From: Bacillota bacterium
GTDB taxonomy: Bacteria > Bacillota > Sulfobacillia > JACIYH01
NCBI GenBank assembly: GCA_030019365.1
Contig: JASEFA010000001.1
Coordinates: 248,001-312,000 of the forward strand
DNA length: 64,000 bases
Direction: 5' to 3'
In this document: positions 22,512-30,893 of the stretch, piece after piece
Layout of the letters: each line of letters starts with the position of its first letter
Numbering within the stretch: position 1 is the stretch's first letter
The notes under the pieces: model-generated
The model's input: only the letters and a program-made list of their open reading frames with translations
The model's database searches: none
What the model was told of the DNA's origin: nothing
Translations under genes and position numbers: made by a program

Positions 22512-22567
22512 GAGTATGCCTGCGCGGTGAGGGCGCGGTTATCCGGAGGTTCCATTGTGGGATTAAA

Positions 22568-22586
22568 TTGCCACGGGCTGTGGCAA
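22568..22586. promoter_or_regulatory. Perfect inverted repeat upstream of the FtsH-like operon
   Basis: TTGCCAC-GGGCT-GTGGCAA, 7-bp arms with a 5-base loop. It could be the rimO terminator stem (no T-tract) or a regulator site; its distance from the -10 at 22608 makes it an upstream element. Confidence 0.5.
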
Positions 22587-22604: not shown

Positions 22605-22613
22605 TGCTATAAT
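22605..22613 (+). promoter_or_regulatory. Extended -10 promoter (TGCTATAAT)
   Basis: A perfect TATAAT at 22608-22613 preceded by TG at 22605-22606, the extended -10 arrangement. No convincing -35 hexamer lies 16-18 bases upstream, which the extended -10 can offset. It is a conspicuous AT-rich island in GC-rich DNA and points toward the membrane protein and FtsH-like genes. Confidence 0.65.
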
Positions 22614-22620
22614 ACTCGTT

Positions 22621-22640
22621 GACGTAATATAAGTTACGTC
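22621..22640. promoter_or_regulatory. Palindromic operator candidate at the transcription start
   Basis: GACGTAA-TATAAG-TTACGTC: perfect 7-bp arms around a 6-base centre, located right after the -10, where RNA polymerase would start. This position suits a dimeric repressor. It does not match the LexA, CtsR, HrcA or Fur consensus sites I know. Confidence 0.55.
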
Positions 22641-22769
22641 TTCAATGCCGGGGACGGCACCATACGGTCAGGTCCCATGGGAGAGGGGCGTGCGAGCAGG
22701 TGGCATGCGAACACGCCGCACAAGGGGAGCCAGGTTGACCCGGGAAGCTTTGCCAGGGGGTGCGACAGA

Positions 22770-23291
22770 GTGGCAGGCCACGTCAGGCGGGCGCTGATAG
22801 CCGCCGTGGCGGCAGCGTTTACCTTCGCCGTGCTGTGGTGGGCGGCGGTCGGCCTGGGCTGGGTACGCCAGGACCGCCCGGTCGCGCGCCTGCTGGCGGC
22901 GCGTCCTGACCTGGTTTCCCACCGGCTGACCTGGTCGGGGGACATGCTCCAGGTGGAGGTGCTCCCTGCGCCCGGAGTTGACCTGCCCGAGTTTTATGCT
23001 TCCCTGCACCGCCAGCTACAGGAGGCCCTCGGCAACCGCCCCTTCGCGCTGCGGGTTGAGGACCGCCGGGATGCGACGCTGCAGGAGGCCATGCGGGTGA
23101 TGCGCCTGTACATCGAGGAGGCCCTGGTGAGCGGCCGCTTCTCCTGGGCGAACGACACGGTGCGGGAGATCGCGGCCCGCCAGGGACTGGAGTGGGCTCG
23201 CATGGGAGTGGATGCAGGCTATGTGTACGTTGAGCTCCGTCACGGTACGGCATATCTCTACGAAGTGATCCCACGTTTCAAGACCCCCTGA
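22770..23291 (+). CDS. Hypothetical single-pass membrane protein upstream of ftsH-like gene
   Basis: GTG 22770 (after an AGGGGGTG tract) gives 173 residues; an upstream in-frame start at 22677 would add a basic tail. One membrane helix lies near residues 8-28, then an external or cytosolic domain with two helices and mixed strands (LQVEVLPAPGVDLPEFYASL; VRMEGL-like ending DAGYVYVELRHGTAYLYEVI). I do not recognise the family. It shares the strong promoter with the FtsH-like protease about 100 bases downstream and could be its adaptor or substrate; that is inference from position. Confidence 0.6.
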   Translation: MAGHVRRALIAAVAAAFTFAVLWWAAVGLGWVRQDRPVARLLAARPDLVSHRLTWSGDMLQVEVLPAPGVDLPEFYASLHRQLQEALGNRPFALRVEDRRDATLQEAMRVMRLYIEEALVSGRFSWANDTVREIAARQGLEWARMGVDAGYVYVELRHGTAYLYEVIPRFKTP

Positions 23292-23395: not shown

Positions 23396-25117
23396 ATGGG
23401 GCAGGTGCGTAAGAAGGAACTGCTGCAGTACGCGGCGCTGGGAGCAGGGGCGGGAGCGGTGGCCTACCTGGCCACCCGGGATGTCAACCTGTTTCCGGTG
23501 GTGGTGCTGGGCGGCCTGCTCTACTTCCTCATTTACTCCACGGGTGCGGGAAAGGCGCTGGGACGCCGTTTCGTGCTGCACCTTTCCGAAGGGATGTGCC
23601 CCCGGGTGACCTTTGACGACGTGGGGGGACAGGGGTCGGCCAAGAAGGAGCTTCTGGAGGCCCTGGAACTGGTCAACCGGCCCGACCGGGCGCGACGCCT
23701 GGGCATCCGCCCCATCAAGGGTATCCTGCTGGCCGGCCCGCCCGGCACCGGCAAGACTCTGCTGGCCAAAGCCGCTGCCAACTTCACCGGCTCCATCTTC
23801 CTGGCCACCTCCGGTTCGGAGTTCATCGAGGTCTACGCCGGCGTGGGCGCCCAGCGGGTGCGGGAGCTGTTCCGGCGGGCCCGCGACCAGGCGCGCCGGG
23901 CCGGGAAGAAGAGCGCGGTGGTGTTCATCGACGAGCTGGAGGTGCTGGGAGGAAAGCGGGGCCGCTACTCCGCTCACCTGGAGTACGATCAAACCCTGAA
24001 TCAGCTCCTGGTCGAAATGGATGGACTTTCCGTAGAGGACGAGGTACGCATCCTGCTCATCGGGGCCACCAACCGCCCCGACCTGCTGGACCCGGCCCTC
24101 CTGCGACCCGGTCGCTTCGACCGGGTGGTGCGCGTTGACCTGCCCGATCGCGAGGGCCGGCTCCAGATCCTCAAGGTACACACCCGGGGCAAGCCCCTGG
24201 CGGCTGACGTGAGCCTGCAGGCCATTGCCCGCGAGACCATGGGGTTTTCGGGAGCGCACCTGGAAAGCCTGGCCAATGAAGCGGCCATCCTGGCCATGCG
24301 CGAAGGTTCCGGGCAGGTGGAACAGAGGCACCTGCGGGAAGCCATCGACAAGGTGATGATGGGGGAAAAGGTGGACCGCAAGCCCCGCCACCAGGAGCTT
24401 TTCCGGGTGGCGGTGCACGAGGCCGGCCACGCGGTGGTGAGCGAGCTGGTCACCCCGGGGTCCATTTCCTCCCTCACCATCTCGCCCCGCGGCAGTGCCC
24501 TGGGGTATGTGCGGCAGGCCCCCCAGGATGACTTTTACCTCTATTCCCGCAGCGAGCTGGAGGACCAGATCTGCGTGCTCCTGGCCGGTGCGGTGGCCGA
24601 AGAGCTGGTGCTGGGCGAGCCCAGCACGGGGGCGGCCAACGACTACGACGGGGCCTGCCAGGCCGCCCGCCGCATGGTATATGCGGGCCTCTCCGCCCTG
24701 GGGGCGGTTGACCCCGACCTGGTAGCGGGCGACTCGGTGCAGCGGGCCATGTCCGACATCATGACCCGGCAGAGGCAGCGCGCCCAGGAGCTGCTGGGGC
24801 CCAGGACCGAAGCCGTCCGCCGCCTGGCGGAACGGGTACTGGAGCGCGAAACTCTGGCCGGAGAGGAGATCCGGGCCGTCCTCGGCTTCGGAGCGCACGC
24901 CCGGACCAAACCTGCCGTACACAGGGTGCGCCTGGTGCGACCCGCTCCCATGCGACCCGCTCCCCTGCGGCCCGCCGCCGCCATCCCATCGGCGGTGCAA
25001 AGCCGCCCGGGGTCCCCCGGCCATCGGCAGGCTGCCGGGCCAGCCCGGTTTCCCCGCGGAGCAGGAATCCGGTGGGGGGGACAGAATTATCCTGCCGGGG
25101 TGAAGAAGCCGGTTTGA
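23396..25117 (+). CDS. FtsH-type AAA+ zinc metalloprotease lacking the periplasmic domain
   Basis: ATG 23396 behind GGAGG; 573 residues. Two closely spaced N-terminal hydrophobic segments (about 10-28 and 32-48) leave only a tiny external loop, whereas classical FtsH has about 70 residues there. AAA core: GPPGTGKT (114-121), VVFIDELE (Walker B), second region of homology LLDPALLRPGRFDR. The pore loop reads EVYAGVG, with Tyr instead of the usual Phe of FVG. Protease site: HEAGH (H341, E342, H345) with the third ligand in AANDYDGA. The C-terminal tail (RLVRPAPMRPAPLRPAA) is low-complexity. It likely degrades membrane or soluble proteins with ATP. Confidence 0.85.
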   Translation: MGQVRKKELLQYAALGAGAGAVAYLATRDVNLFPVVVLGGLLYFLIYSTGAGKALGRRFVLHLSEGMCPRVTFDDVGGQGSAKKELLEALELVNRPDRARRLGIRPIKGILLAGPPGTGKTLLAKAAANFTGSIFLATSGSEFIEVYAGVGAQRVRELFRRARDQARRAGKKSAVVFIDELEVLGGKRGRYSAHLEYDQTLNQLLVEMDGLSVEDEVRILLIGATNRPDLLDPALLRPGRFDRVVRVDLPDREGRLQILKVHTRGKPLAADVSLQAIARETMGFSGAHLESLANEAAILAMREGSGQVEQRHLREAIDKVMMGEKVDRKPRHQELFRVAVHEAGHAVVSELVTPGSISSLTISPRGSALGYVRQAPQDDFYLYSRSELEDQICVLLAGAVAEELVLGEPSTGAANDYDGACQAARRMVYAGLSALGAVDPDLVAGDSVQRAMSDIMTRQRQRAQELLGPRTEAVRRLAERVLERETLAGEEIRAVLGFGAHARTKPAVHRVRLVRPAPMRPAPLRPAAAIPSAVQSRPGSPGHRQAAGPARFPRGAGIRWGGQNYPAGVKKPV

Positions 25118-26367
25118 TCGCGGAAATAGTGGCTGTGGGGACGGAGATCCTGCTGGGCGACATCGTCAACACCAATGCCCGGTTCCTGAGCCAGCGCCTG
25201 GCCGCCCTGGGCGTGGACGTCTACTACCAGGTAGCGGTGGGGGACAACCGGGACCGCATGGCGGCTGCCTTCCGGCAGGCGCTGGGGCGCGCCCACCTGG
25301 TGGTGGTGAGCGGGGGACTGGGCCCTACCGAGGACGACCTGAGCAAAGAGGTGATGGCCCAGGTCCTGGGGCGGCCTCTGGATTTCGACCCGGGAGTGAT
25401 GGCGGGGATCGAGGACTTCTTCCGCCGCCGGGGCAGGCCCCTGACCCCGAACGCGCGCAAGCAGGCCCTGGTCCCGCGAGGGGCGCGGGTGCTGGAGAAT
25501 CCCGTGGGGACGGCCCCCGGTCTCTTCCTGGAGGAAGCGGGGAGCCTGGTGGTGCTCCTGCCCGGACCGCCCGGAGAGCTGGTTCCCATCTGGGAGCGGC
25601 AGGTGGAGCCCTTGCTGCGCGAGCGGGGAGCCGGTACGCAGGTGATCCTCAGCCGCACCATCAAGGTTTGTGCCATGGGGGAGGCGGGGGTGGCCCATCT
25701 GGTGCGGGACCTGTTCGCGTCGGCCAACCCCACGGTGGCCCCCTACGCCAAGCCGGGTGAGGTGCACCTGCGGGTGACGGCGAAAGCTGCGGACGCCGCT
25801 GCGGCCCGAGAGCTCATCGCCCCCCTGGAAGATGAGGTCCGGCGCCGCCTGGGGTGGCGCGTGTTCGGGGCCGACGGGGAGACTCTGGCTCACGCCGCCG
25901 GCGAGAGGCTGGCAGCGGCCGGTCTCACCCTGGCGGTGGCGGAGAGTTGCACGGGGGGCATGCTGGGCGCCCGTATTACCTCGGTGCCGGGATCGTCGCG
26001 CTACTTCCTGGGTGGGATCATCTCGTACGCCAACGAGGTGAAGGAGTCCCAGCTGGGGGTATCCGCCGGGGTGATCCGGGAGCACGGGGCCGTCTCCGAG
26101 CAGGTGGCGGGCGCCATGGCGGAAGGGGTGCGGGATCGCCTGGGTGCCTCCCTGGCCCTGGCCATCTCGGGAGTGGCCGGGCCGGGTGGGGGCAGGCCGG
26201 GCAAGCCGGTGGGTACGGTGTGCTTTGCTCTGGCGCGACCGGAGGGCACTTTCACCTGGTCGGATTCTCTGCGGGGTGATCGGGAAGAGGTACGCGAGCG
26301 AGCCTGCCAGATTGCCCTCACCACCCTCTATCGCTATCTGGCCACCGGCAGCCCCGAGGGGGAATAG
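25114..26367 (+). CDS. cinA: CinA: competence/damage-inducible protein, nicotinamide-nucleotide amidase
   Basis: TTG 25114 overlaps the protease stop (TTGA) and starts the family N-terminus IAEIVAVGTEILLGDIVNTN; 417 residues. The N-terminal MoCF/COG1058 domain carries SGGLGPTEDDLS and the C-terminal amidohydrolase domain AESCTGGMLGARITSVPGSS and ISGVAGPGGG. The two-domain form fits enzymes that hydrolyse ADP-ribose-like compounds and deamidate NMN in pyridine-nucleotide salvage. The order cinA, (thpR), recA is common in Bacillota. Confidence 0.9.
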   Translation: MIAEIVAVGTEILLGDIVNTNARFLSQRLAALGVDVYYQVAVGDNRDRMAAAFRQALGRAHLVVVSGGLGPTEDDLSKEVMAQVLGRPLDFDPGVMAGIEDFFRRRGRPLTPNARKQALVPRGARVLENPVGTAPGLFLEEAGSLVVLLPGPPGELVPIWERQVEPLLRERGAGTQVILSRTIKVCAMGEAGVAHLVRDLFASANPTVAPYAKPGEVHLRVTAKAADAAAARELIAPLEDEVRRRLGWRVFGADGETLAHAAGERLAAAGLTLAVAESCTGGMLGARITSVPGSSRYFLGGIISYANEVKESQLGVSAGVIREHGAVSEQVAGAMAEGVRDRLGASLALAISGVAGPGGGRPGKPVGTVCFALARPEGTFTWSDSLRGDREEVRERACQIALTTLYRYLATGSPEGE

Positions 26368-26369
26368 GT

Positions 26370-26924
26370 TTGCGGCTTTTCGTGGCGGTGGAGTTGCCCC
26401 CTTCTTTGCGGCGCGCTCTGGGCGAACTGGTGCGCCACCTGGCGGAATCCCGGGCCGACGTCAAGTGGGTGGAGGAAGAGAACTTCCACCTCACCCTCAA
26501 GTTCCTGGGAGAGGTGGACCCGGCCCGCCTTGCCGAGCTGGCGGAGGCCTTGGCCCGGGCGGCCGGGGAAATGAAGCCATTCACCTTCGAGGCTGCCGGC
26601 ACAGGCGCGTTCCCGTCCCCCGGGCGAGCGCGGGTGGTGTGGGTGGGGGTGGGCCGCGGGGCAGGAGAGCTGGGCCGGCTGGCTGCCGCAGTAGACTCCC
26701 AGCTCGCGGACCTGGGTTTTGCCCCCGAGAGCAGGCCCTTTTCGCCCCACCTCACCGTGGGCCGGGTGCGCTCACCCCGCGGGGCGACCGACCTGGCCAG
26801 AGCGCTCGAGCAGGCTTCCTTCCCCGCCCGGGAGGTTGCCGTGGAAGAAATCGTGCTGTTCCAGAGCGCGCTCGGGCGCTCCGGTCCGGTATACACTCCC
26901 CTGGGGCGCCACCGGCTGGGCTAG
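26370..26924 (+). CDS. thpR: RNA 2',3'-cyclic phosphodiesterase (LigT/ThpR)
   Basis: TTG 26370 begins MRLFVAVELPPSLRRAL; 184 residues, normal for the family. The two HxT motifs of the 2H phosphoesterase fold are present: HLTLKFLG (H40, T42) and HLTVGRV (about H127). It hydrolyses 2',3'-cyclic phosphate ends; the physiological RNA substrate is not known. It lies 2 bases after cinA and presumably shares its transcript. Confidence 0.88.
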   Translation: MRLFVAVELPPSLRRALGELVRHLAESRADVKWVEEENFHLTLKFLGEVDPARLAELAEALARAAGEMKPFTFEAAGTGAFPSPGRARVVWVGVGRGAGELGRLAAAVDSQLADLGFAPESRPFSPHLTVGRVRSPRGATDLARALEQASFPAREVAVEEIVLFQSALGRSGPVYTPLGRHRLG

Positions 26925-27074: not shown

Positions 27075-27115
27075 CAGCGGAGGAAGCGGCTCCCGACCAG
27101 AAAGGAGGGGACCGC

Positions 27116-28138
27116 ATGGATAGAGAAAAGGCCCTGGAGATGGCCCTTTCCCAGATCGAAAGGCAGTTCGGGAAAGGGTCCGTCATGCGTTTGGGAGAGG
27201 CGTCGGCCCGCATGCAGGTGGACGTGATCCCCACCGGATCCCTCGCCCTGGACATCGCCCTGGGGATCGGGGGGATCCCACGAGGGCGGGTGGTGGAGAT
27301 TTACGGCCCGGAGGCGTCGGGCAAGACCACCGTGGCGCTCCACATCATCAGCGAAACCCAGAGGATGGGGGGAGTGGCCGCCTTCATCGACGCCGAGCAC
27401 GCCCTGGATCCGGTGTACGCCCGCCGGGTGGGGGTGGACGTGGACAACCTCCTCATCTCCCAGCCGGACACCGGTGAGCAGGCCCTGGAGATCGCCGAGG
27501 CGCTGGTGCGCAGCGGTGCCGTCGACGTGGTGGTGGTGGACTCGGTGGCGGCTCTGGTGCCGCGGGCGGAGCTGGAAGGTGAGATGGGCGATTCGCACGT
27601 GGGTCTGCAGGCCCGGCTCATGTCCCAGGCCCTGCGCAAGCTGGCCGGCGCCATCTCGAAAACCCGCTGCGTGGCCGTCTTCATCAACCAGTTGCGCGAG
27701 AAAGTGGGGGTAATGTTCGGGAATCCCGAGGTGACCCCCGGGGGCCGGGCCCTCAAGTTCTATGCCTCCATTCGCCTGGAGGTGCGCAAGCAGGAGTCCA
27801 TCAAGCACGGGACGGAAGTGGTGGGCTCGCGCACCCGCGTCAAGGTGGTGAAGAACAAGCTCGCTCCCCCCTTCCGGCAGGCCGACTTCGACATCATCTA
27901 CGGCGAGGGGATCTCGCGCGAGGGCAGCATCCTGGACGTGGGCGTGGATATGGGCGTTCTACAGAAGGTGGGTACCTGGTACGCCTTCGGTGACGTGCGC
28001 CTGGGACAGGGTAGGGAGAACGCCCGTGACTACCTTCGCTCCCACCCGGAGACGGCGACGGAGGTAGAGCGCAAGGCGCGGGAAGCCCTCAGCCTGGGCG
28101 CGGTGAAGACGGCAGCCGCCAGTGATGACGAGGCCTGA
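27116..28138 (+). CDS. recA: Recombinase RecA
   Basis: ATG 27116 with AAAGGAGG upstream; 340 residues. Walker [10 protein letters not shown] (64-72), Walker [20 protein letters not shown], loop L1/L2 sequences ([39 protein letters not shown]) are intact. It forms ATP-dependent filaments on single-stranded DNA for homologous recombination and would trigger LexA self-cleavage if present. It heads a run of repair genes: recX, an Mre11-like nuclease and a Rad50-like ATPase in pieces. The 3' end overlaps recX by 17 bases. Confidence 0.97.
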
Positions 28139-28739
28139 CCGCGCCGCCCGCAGGGGAGCGGGCGGGGGCTCGCAGATCGATGCCGCGCGGGAGTACGCCT
28201 TGCGGCTGCTCGAGCGTCCCCGCACCGAGTACCAGGTCAGGATGGCCCTGGCCCGGCGGGGATTCGACGGGGCCGTACAGGACGAGGTGGTGGGCCGCCT
28301 GCGGGGGCTGGGACTGCTGGATGATGTGGCGTACGCTCGGGCCTACATAGAAGAGACGCTGGTACGTCGGCCCATGGGCAGGAGGGCCCTGGCGGTCGCC
28401 CTGGCCCGGCGCGGGGTGAGCAGGGAACACGTCCGGCTGGCCCTCGCCCAGGTGGAGGAGAGCATGAGGATGGATGTGGGGGCGGATGCGGGTCCCGCGG
28501 GCCGCGAGGGGGAGCCGGACGCAGGTGCCGCGGGCCCGGAGGGGGAGCCGGGAGACCTGGAAGAGGTGGCTGCCCGGCGGGCGGGACAGGCCTGGTTGCG
28601 GCGCAACCGGCACCGTCCCGACGCCTGCCGCCTGCAGGGCTACCTCATGAGGCGCGGGTTCGGTAGGGAGCTGGCGGTGCGCACGGTGAGAGAACTGCTG
28701 GGCGAGGAGAGTGACGATGCGTTTCCTGGTGGTGGCTGA
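28122..28739 (+). CDS. recX: Regulatory protein RecX
   Basis: 205 residues from ATG 28122, within the recA end. The RecX three-helix repeats are seen in [43 protein letters not shown] and the C-terminal [17 protein letters not shown]. RecX modulates RecA filament growth. An acidic Gly/Pro-rich insertion between the second and third repeats, around residues 120-145, is made of an 11-residue duplication. The end overlaps the next gene by 23 bases. Confidence 0.87.
28488..28550 (+). repeat. 33-bp-period duplication inside recX
   Basis: Two 30-bp near-copies at 28488-28517 and 28521-28550, both ending GAGGGGGAGCCG (period 33 bp), encoding [10 protein letters not shown] and [10 protein letters not shown] in the RecX linker. 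Confidence 0.8.
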
Positions 28740-29727
28740 CACCCACCTCCGCGGCACTTCTCCCCAGGGCCGGCGGGACGACTTCTTCGCCACCTGCCGC
28801 GCCAAACTGGAGGAAGTGGTGAACCTGGCGGAGGACCTGGGGGTGAGCGCCCTCCTGCACCTGGGGGACGTGTTCGACCGCCCCGACCTGGCTCCCGGCG
28901 TGGCACGGGAATTCATGCTTGTCCTGCGCCGCTGCCGGGTGCCCGTGTACGGCATCGTCGGCAACCACGATGTTTACGGTCACAACCCGGACAGCCTCCC
29001 CCGCACCCTGCTCGGGCTGGTGGAGGCACTGGGTGGGCTGCGGCTCCTGCGGTGCGGCGAGGTGGAGCTGCTGGGAGGTCCGGGGCAGTTGAAGGTGCAG
29101 CTCACCGGGGCCCCCTTCCAGCACGACATCGACAGCAGGGACGGGGCGGACTACGTGGTCAGCAGGGATGCCCGCGCGGACGTGGCCATCCACATGGCTC
29201 ACGGCATGCTTCTCGAGAAACCCTGGGTGTCCGGGATGGACTATACGCTCATCGAACGGGTGGCACCGCGCACCGGTGCCGATCTCACCCTGGTGGGGCA
29301 CTACCACCTGGGGTACTCCCGGCTTCCCCTCGAGCCCGTACCGGGGCGCCTCTTCGTCAACCCCGGTGCCATGGTGCGCCTGGAAGCCAGCCTGGCGGAG
29401 ATTGCCCGTCACCCGCAGGTGGTGCTGGTGGAAGTGGAGGGGAGTGGCATCTCGGTGCGCGGCATCCCTCTGCGGAGCGCGCTCCCGGGGGATGAGGTGC
29501 TGGACCGTTCGCTCATCGAAGCGGCCGCCTACCGGGATACCCAGCTGGCCGACTTCATCCAGCGGGTGAAAGGGGCCTGGGACGGGCGCCGCCTGTTTGA
29601 CCTGGAGGACATGGTGGCCGCCATCGCCGGCGGCGAAGGATACCCGGAGGAAGTGAAGAGGGAGGCGCTGCAGCGGGTGGGGATGGCTCGGGAACGCCTG
29701 GCGGGGAGGAGCGGGAGGGAAAGGTGA
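28717..29727 (+). CDS. Mre11/SbcD-like metallophosphoesterase
   Basis: ATG 28717 ([13 protein letters not shown]), 336 residues; GTG 28711 is a neighbouring alternative. Phosphoesterase motifs are complete: DTH, LGDVFDRP, GNHDVYG, HMAHG and GHYHLGYS. A capping domain of about 100 residues follows. The family includes SbcD and Mre11, Mn-dependent nucleases that work with SbcC/Rad50 on DNA ends and hairpins. Its stop overlaps the start of the Rad50-like N-half gene (29724), strongly suggesting that the two products form a complex. It is shorter than typical SbcD (about 400), resembling phage-type versions. Confidence 0.85.
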   Translation: MRFLVVADTHLRGTSPQGRRDDFFATCRAKLEEVVNLAEDLGVSALLHLGDVFDRPDLAPGVAREFMLVLRRCRVPVYGIVGNHDVYGHNPDSLPRTLLGLVEALGGLRLLRCGEVELLGGPGQLKVQLTGAPFQHDIDSRDGADYVVSRDARADVAIHMAHGMLLEKPWVSGMDYTLIERVAPRTGADLTLVGHYHLGYSRLPLEPVPGRLFVNPGAMVRLEASLAEIARHPQVVLVEVEGSGISVRGIPLRSALPGDEVLDRSLIEAAAYRDTQLADFIQRVKGAWDGRRLFDLEDMVAAIAGGEGYPEEVKREALQRVGMARERLAGRSGRER

Positions 29728-30893
29728 GGTACATAGCCAGTCTGGAGCTGGAGAACTTCCAGTGCCACGCCCGCACCCTGCTCACCTTCAGCCCGGGGCT
29801 GAACGTGATCGTGGGCCCCTCCGACCAGGGCAAGACCGCCATCATCAGGGGCCTGCGCTGGGTGCTGTACAACGAGCCGCGTGGGAGCGACTTCGTGCGC
29901 GTGGGTGCCGAGTCCTGCCGTGTAACCGTCACCTTCGACGACGGCACCCGTATCAGCCGGGAGAAAGGGCCCCGCACCAACCGCTACCTTATCGAGAAGG
30001 ATGGGGAAAGACGTGAGTTCAACTCGGTCAACGCGACCGTGGAGAGCGAGGTCTGCGCCGCCCACGGCATGGCACCCCTTGCCCTCGATGAAGACCGGGA
30101 GCTGAGGCTCAATCTGGGTGGCCAACTGGAAGCTCCCTTCCTCCTGGAGGAGCCGGGTGCGCTGCGGGCTAAGGCAGTGAGCCAGATCGTGGGCGTCCAC
30201 ATAATCGACGCTGCCATCCGGGACGTGCTGGCGGACGAGGGGCGGGCCGCCCGCGAGGAAGCCGATCTCGGCAGGGATATCGCAGTCTGGGAGGAAAAGC
30301 TGGCCCGGTACGACGACCTGCCCGCCCACGAGCAGGCGTTGCAGCAGGCGGAAGCGGTGCTGGCCCGGGCGCGGGGGCAGCGGGAGCGGGCGGAGCGGTT
30401 GTTCGACCTGAAGAAGAGCTGGGAACGCGCCCGGGAGGATGCGGAGAGGCTGAGCCGGCTGGTGCACCTCCTGGGGGGCCTGCCCCAGGCGGAAGACCTG
30501 GCGGGGCGGGCAGGGGCGCTGGTGGATCGGTACGGTCGCCTGCGCCAGCTGTCGCTGCGGTGGCGCGAGAGCGGCTCTCGCAAGGCCCACTGGGAGCGGG
30601 TGGCGGCCGGCCTGGCGGGGGCGCCCCGGGCCGAGGGCCTGCTCGAGAGGGCGGCAGAGCTGCAATCCCGGTGGCAGAGGCTGCGGGAGGTACGGTCCCG
30701 CCTCGCCCAGGTCCGGGAGCGGATCGGGAAAGCCGTGGCCGGGCGGGACCGGGCCCGCTACCAGGAGAGAGAGGTGGGGACCCGGTACGGCGAACTGCTG
30801 GTGCGCCTGGGCAGGTGTCCCACCTGCGGGGCCGCCATCAAGCCGGACCAGGTTCCCGCCATCCTGGCGGAAATATGCGGAGGGGGGCGGTAG
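29724..30893 (+). CDS. N-terminal half of a split Rad50/SbcC-like ATPase, ending at a zinc hook
   Basis: 389 residues from GTG 29724. The beginning YIASLELENFQCHARTLLTF and Walker A GPSDQGKTAI are those of the SMC/Rad50 head N-lobe; the lobe continues to about residue 150. Residues 155-360 are almost entirely charged helix, i.e. coiled coil. RCPTCGAAIKP (C365, C368) near the end is a Rad50-type CxxC zinc hook. No Walker B, signature loop or returning coil is present in this gene. These are encoded by the second gene downstream. In ordinary SbcC/Rad50 both halves are one polypeptide of 900-1300 residues. The partner nuclease is the preceding gene. Confidence 0.8.
   Translation: MRYIASLELENFQCHARTLLTFSPGLNVIVGPSDQGKTAIIRGLRWVLYNEPRGSDFVRVGAESCRVTVTFDDGTRISREKGPRTNRYLIEKDGERREFNSVNATVESEVCAAHGMAPLALDEDRELRLNLGGQLEAPFLLEEPGALRAKAVSQIVGVHIIDAAIRDVLADEGRAAREEADLGRDIAVWEEKLARYDDLPAHEQALQQAEAVLARARGQRERAERLFDLKKSWERAREDAERLSRLVHLLGGLPQAEDLAGRAGALVDRYGRLRQLSLRWRESGSRKAHWERVAAGLAGAPRAEGLLERAAELQSRWQRLREVRSRLAQVRERIGKAVAGRDRARYQEREVGTRYGELLVRLGRCPTCGAAIKPDQVPAILAEICGGGR

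Follow-up and report, generated by a model that had tools for sequence, protein, structure and literature searches.

The promoter ahead of a gene cluster that runs from a small membrane protein to recA raises the question of what, if anything, binds over its start point and controls it. The window analysed here is a single stretch of 64,000 nucleotides (C1:248001-312000), and the contig that carries it, C1, also carries the replication terminus. An earlier note on the window had described an extended -10 promoter, a perfect palindromic operator at its start point and a further inverted repeat upstream, and the letters and coordinates of all three are as it wrote them. The features of the locus, in window positions, are as follows.

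22568-22586: upstream inverted repeat TTGCCAC-GGGCT-GTGGCAA, present as letters
22605-22613, plus strand: extended -10 promoter element TGCTATAAT, read from the sequence, with no recognisable -35
22617-22627, minus strand: XerD-type dif half-site, minus-strand reading TTACGTCAACG, consensus TTATGTNAACT
22621-22640: perfect palindrome GACGTAA-TATAAG-TTACGTC, 7 nt past the -10, at the expected start point
22628-22633: 6-bp spacer TATAAG, equal in length to the dif central region
22634-22644, plus strand: second, degenerate XerD-type arm TTACGTCTTCA
22770-23291, plus strand: first gene, encoding a protein of about 173 aa that has one N-terminal membrane helix and belongs to no known family; translation probably begins at the GTG at 22770, as it does in the congener L016
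23315-25117, plus strand: FtsH-like AAA + M41 protease with an HEAGH motif and without a periplasmic domain
25072-26367, plus strand: cinA
26370-26924, plus strand: thpR/LigT-like RNA 2',3'-cyclic phosphodiesterase
27107-28138, plus strand: recA, the last gene that belongs with certainty to the conserved co-directional cluster
28122-28739: recX, after recA

The order membrane protein, FtsH-like protease, cinA, thpR and recA is kept in most relatives examined, and the cluster is probably co-transcribed through recA. What had been called an FtsH-like pair contains one FtsH-like AAA/M41 protease, but its partner is a membrane protein for which profile searches against solved structures and Pfam returned nothing convincing. 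The protease has two membrane helices, while the first-gene protein has one helix and an outer domain; the latter may supply the missing periplasmic part of the protease as a separate subunit. Following recX, positions 28711-30893 encode a metallophosphoesterase and an SMC/Rad50-like protein that is short at 389 aa (weak NCBIfam matches), and these are perhaps a compact Mre11-Rad50-like pair within the recA cluster.

Taken alone, the palindrome is weak evidence, because 64 kb of sequence should hold, by chance, about four 7-bp inverted repeats with a spacer of exactly 6 bp (64000/4^7) and repeats of 7-10 bp were also seen in other upstream regions. At up to one mismatch the full palindrome has no second copy in the 2.94-Mb genome (the next best match has two mismatches), and it therefore defines no regulon; matches in viral contigs were set aside as the background of a very large collection. 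Recurrence and conservation, on which the earlier note had jointly rested its operator, came apart: the palindrome is not repeated in the genome, yet conservation upstream of the orthologues is strong. It is this conservation that raises promoter and palindrome above chance.

When genome contigs were scanned for TATAAT-N7-palindrome, the pattern turned up at one place, upstream of the orthologous first gene in the congener L016, where the same promoter and palindrome are present (TGCTATAATACCGGTTGACGTAATAAATGTTACGTC). The congener L019 retains the promoter and the left arm GTTGACGTAA with a decayed right arm, and in the congener G001 the second arm has decayed to TTATGTATCCT. The 10-mer of the half-site, TTACGTCAAC, is retained in all three congeners. 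The further repeat at 22568-22586, to which the earlier note had also drawn attention, did not hold up, being absent from both L016 and L019. A block GGATTAAATTG (22560-22570), about 40 bp upstream of the -10, is retained in all three congeners; it forms the left edge of this non-conserved repeat, which starts inside the block.

The pattern of arm decay also bears on whether the palindrome acts as RNA, that is, as a hairpin at the 5' end of the mRNA for stability or leader control. The palindrome begins at about +1 and folds to an 8-bp stem, but the z-score of the leader fold is only -0.95, the second arm is lost in G001, and in other families the 11-mer stands single and unpaired, often across the -10, so that it is only partly transcribed. 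We rejected the hairpin on the arm decay and the single half-sites, and consider it very improbable; an Rfam search of the 64-kb window gave no match.

Of the 154 genomes of the class, many of which are draft assemblies and whose families are non-independent samples, 127 have an orthologue of the first gene, and 100 upstream regions were compared with dinucleotide shuffles as control. An exact extended -10 (TGnTATAmT) is present in 68 of these regions, from 29 families, against 0.7 in shuffles, which bears out the promoter as real. A -10 within one mismatch is present in 87 regions. In 25 of these (11 families) TTAYGTNAAC lies up to 45 nt downstream of the -10 in forward orientation, and in four (the three congeners of this genus and G011) in reverse, with about 0.04 expected in each case. 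Seventeen regions have it at an identical offset, which makes the final T of the -10 common to both elements. The core TTATGT of the 11-bp element TTATGTNAACT was found more widely (39/87 regions, 24 families; 1.5 expected), overlapping the -10 or sitting just downstream of it in those 24 families. The typical arrangement of promoter and element is TGCTATAATTATGTCAAC; in some families the element sits 11-20 nt further downstream, and in one (f6: L148, L149, L150, L151) the same promoter carries the half-site as direct repeats in tandem, 14-16 bp apart, e.g., TTATGTCAACTATATTATGTCAAC. The perfect palindrome is confined to part of one genus, and what stands of the proposed operator is a conserved site, apparently of protein-binding type, over the start region.

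This site has a single target. The regulon that the earlier note had hoped to find is not visible, as there is one place per genome. The sequence TGYTATAMTTATGTYAAC, with up to one mismatch, has one match in each of 10 genomes, always upstream of the first gene. A looser promoter-plus-element pattern returned 34 rows in the 154 genomes, with 24 places at the first gene and nine elsewhere, against eight for a reversed-pattern control. A regulon defined by the 10-mer was likewise rejected: its extra sites lie mostly inside long reading frames, and once a -10 is required the off-target matches equal the control. It is unusual for many families to keep a one-target operator at the same promoter, and this would hold even if a protein other than the one we propose below binds it.

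The 11-bp element is the XerD-binding arm of the chromosomal dif site of this class. The class dif, CGTCCKATAA-N6-TTATGTNAACT, occurs in 94 genomes out of 154, as a rule once per genome, against two control matches, and it is consistent with dif sites in the literature, for example ACGTCCCATAAGATATATTATGTAAAGT (PMC2731167). At the promoter studied here the arm reads TTACGTCAACG, close to TTATGTNAACT, with which the class consensus is identical. Promoter sites selected on TTAYGT only read N-A-A-C-T at positions 7-11, which is the profile of the XerD arm across 85 dif sites; ten or eleven positions of the half-site agree with the dif arm, some of them not used in selection. The absence of a classical stress operator, suspected from the first, is borne out, and the conserved core matches a recombinase arm, not a conventional repressor operator. 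A XerD gene is present in the genome (398.6 bits against a curated cut-off of 329.6), together with an XerC-like copy.

In this genus the resemblance to dif extends to geometry. The perfect palindrome is the inner part of an inverted pair, CGTTGACGTAA-TATAAG-TTACGTCTTCA at 22617-22644, which has the 11-6-11 layout of dif and, in this genome, fits the dif-like pattern with zero mismatches. The second arm of the genus pair resembles a worn XerD arm, not an XerC arm: its minus-strand reading, TGAAGACGTAA, matches only the last three letters of the class XerC consensus ACGTCCKATAA. Other families have no second arm at the promoter site. Recombination between the promoter site and dif appears unlikely, because their spacers differ.

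These observations weigh on the possibility that the site is the operator of a dedicated one-target regulator other than XerD, and that its likeness to the dif arm is convergence. One target per genome, a fixed position over the -10 and the tandem copies of f6 are all typical of operators, and the variation of the site is not clearly linked to that of dif. Convergence would nonetheless have to account for the ten or eleven shared positions, including those outside the selection, and for the dif-like geometry in this genus, and no DNA-binding protein is found among the identified genes of the operon. We regard a dedicated regulator as unlikely, while giving it serious weight.

The promoter site is not dif itself, because a canonical dif lies 55 kb downstream at the GC-skew switch. 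On C1 the skew is positive up to about 310-320 kb and negative beyond, with the switch near 310-330 kb, and the best dif match, from a profile built from four known dif sites, is AGGTCCTATAA-TATACA-TTATGTTTACA at 325897 (25.3 bits; next best 17.0). This accords with the report that dif position follows the GC-skew shift point (PMC3025954). The promoter site, at C1:270621, was accordingly rejected as the chromosomal dif. It shares with dif the XerD-arm sequence, a place near the terminus and, in this genus, two arms of 11 bp separated by 6 bp, but unlike dif it has no XerC arm and no skew switch and sits inside a promoter. Within the window, GC skew fades at 50-64 kb, and the replication terminus is just beyond the right end. 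The lexA gene is also near the terminus dif (C1:320102-320704).

Nearness to dif is a feature of the class. In 19 of the 20 contigs that hold both, transcription of the first gene runs toward dif from a distance of 3-172 kb; the distances, among which contig sizes favour short values, are 3-62 kb in 15 contigs, 94-172 kb in four and 1.17 Mb in one (G126). Five of six near-complete chromosomes have the two within 172 kb of each other. In one contig (G021:C193, L362) the canonical dif is only 3 kb downstream of the first operon gene.

An XerD arm that lies outside dif and within the terminus region, 55 kb from dif in this genome, recalls the XDS of Bacillus subtilis (Karaboja et al., 2021, as described in PMC10945525 and PMC8357415), which according to those sources are XerD-bound sites at which SMC is unloaded. 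By this description, the promoter site would differ from XDS in that many families have it across the -10/start of one and the same promoter. The half-site could thus serve terminus chromosome organisation through SMC unloading, with its overlap with the promoter incidental and the operon unregulated by XerD. The nearness of gene and site to dif fits such a role, as does the unloading of SMC by XerD in the B. subtilis terminus region that those two sources describe. SMC unloading, however, does not require a site fixed over the -10 of one gene in many families, and half-sites do not cluster around dif on C1, where only one further perfect TTATGTNAAC lies within 60 kb of dif. We consider this role improbable, slightly more so than a dedicated regulator. 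A perfect XerD-type half-site, TTATGTAAACA, is at C1:353434 (L307:13434), 27 kb beyond dif on the other side, apparently in the gap that separates a membrane-protein gene from a surE-like one. At the corresponding place in two congeners (L131:1501-1510 and L170:1501-1510) there is TTATGTTAAC, just past a GAATTCCTGC-type inverted repeat and between an LmbE-like gene and the next gene; this is possibly a second site.

The presence of recA in the operon brings to mind two established modes of its control. In Deinococcus, a DdrO repressor and an IrrE protease act through the RDRM, TTATGTCATTGACATAA, for which recA is a classical target (PMC1978522). A DdrO-like repressor with an IrrE-like protease would suit a site over a promoter of a recA operon, and the first eight letters, TTATGTYA, are common to the RDRM and the half-site. 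However, Peptidase_M78 (IrrE) was not found in the genome, by a search whose control was positive in Deinobacterium and others, and there is one target and no regulon. The geometry differs as well: RDRM halves face each other 1 bp apart, whereas the site described here is a single half-site or a pair in the opposite arrangement with 6 bp between, and the 17-bp palindrome TTATGTYANTRACRTAA is not found. We rejected this system on the missing protease and the geometry, and rate its chances as very slight. LexA is the other candidate, given an operator-like palindrome ahead of an operon with recA and a lexA gene in the genome. Since lexA is usually autoregulated, a LexA box of the clade should recur at lexA, but the motif is missing from the lexA promoter, the site has a single target, and it is not a LexA-type box. 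LexA was rejected on the lexA promoter and is, of all the readings weighed here, the one that we credit least.

A conserved half-site in the promoter, together with closeness to the real dif, suggests that XerD may also control the recA operon. We propose, at somewhat short of an even chance and from sequence evidence, that XerD, perhaps with XerC, binds the half-site over the -10 and represses the operon. Under this model the operon (membrane protein, FtsH-like protease, cinA, thpR and recA) would be transcribed from an extended -10 without a clear -35, and a putative XerD site, an 11-bp copy of the dif XerD arm, would lie over or just past that -10, as an inverted arm pair with dif spacing in this genus and as a single or tandem half-site in other families. 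Bound XerD, alone or with XerC, would hinder initiation by RNA polymerase and keep the operon low, as expected of a repressor at an operator that overlaps the -10/start region. RecA crossovers create chromosome dimers. The site lies to one side of dif, usually 25-100 kb away, and its occupancy could respond to Xer, FtsK and SMC activity at the terminus, so that RecA supply would be tied by feedback to the machinery that resolves the dimers RecA makes. The fuller form of the proposal, in which XerD moonlights as a transcription regulator and the dimer-resolution machinery of the terminus throttles the dimer-creating recombinase through the half-site at the recA promoter, is more tentative.

RipX, the XerD homologue of B. 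subtilis, can bind both arms of dif with a preference for the right arm (PMC5357621), a behaviour that fits a site made of two inverted XerD-type arms. In the same species XerD also acts outside recombination, in SMC unloading near the terminus (PMC8357415, PMC10945525). The literature searched, mostly open-access papers, held no precedent for XerD at promoters. Several observations count against XerD. Many families, among them f7, f24 and f38, have the promoter without the half-site, and the dif arm of f7 is nevertheless the same; from one genome to the next, variation in the promoter site does not clearly go together with variation in the dif arm; and in G126 the gene and dif are 1.17 Mb apart. 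The half-site is short and shares its first letters with the Deinococcus RDRM, so that convergence is possible, and synteny alone could explain the nearness to dif.

If XerD does bind at this promoter, chromosome-dimer resolution and RecA supply would be wired together by a cis-element visible in the genome, and a site-specific recombinase would act as a promoter regulator. For approaching this link between the terminus and recA, the finding offers a set of listed promoters and an 11-bp change that is precisely defined.
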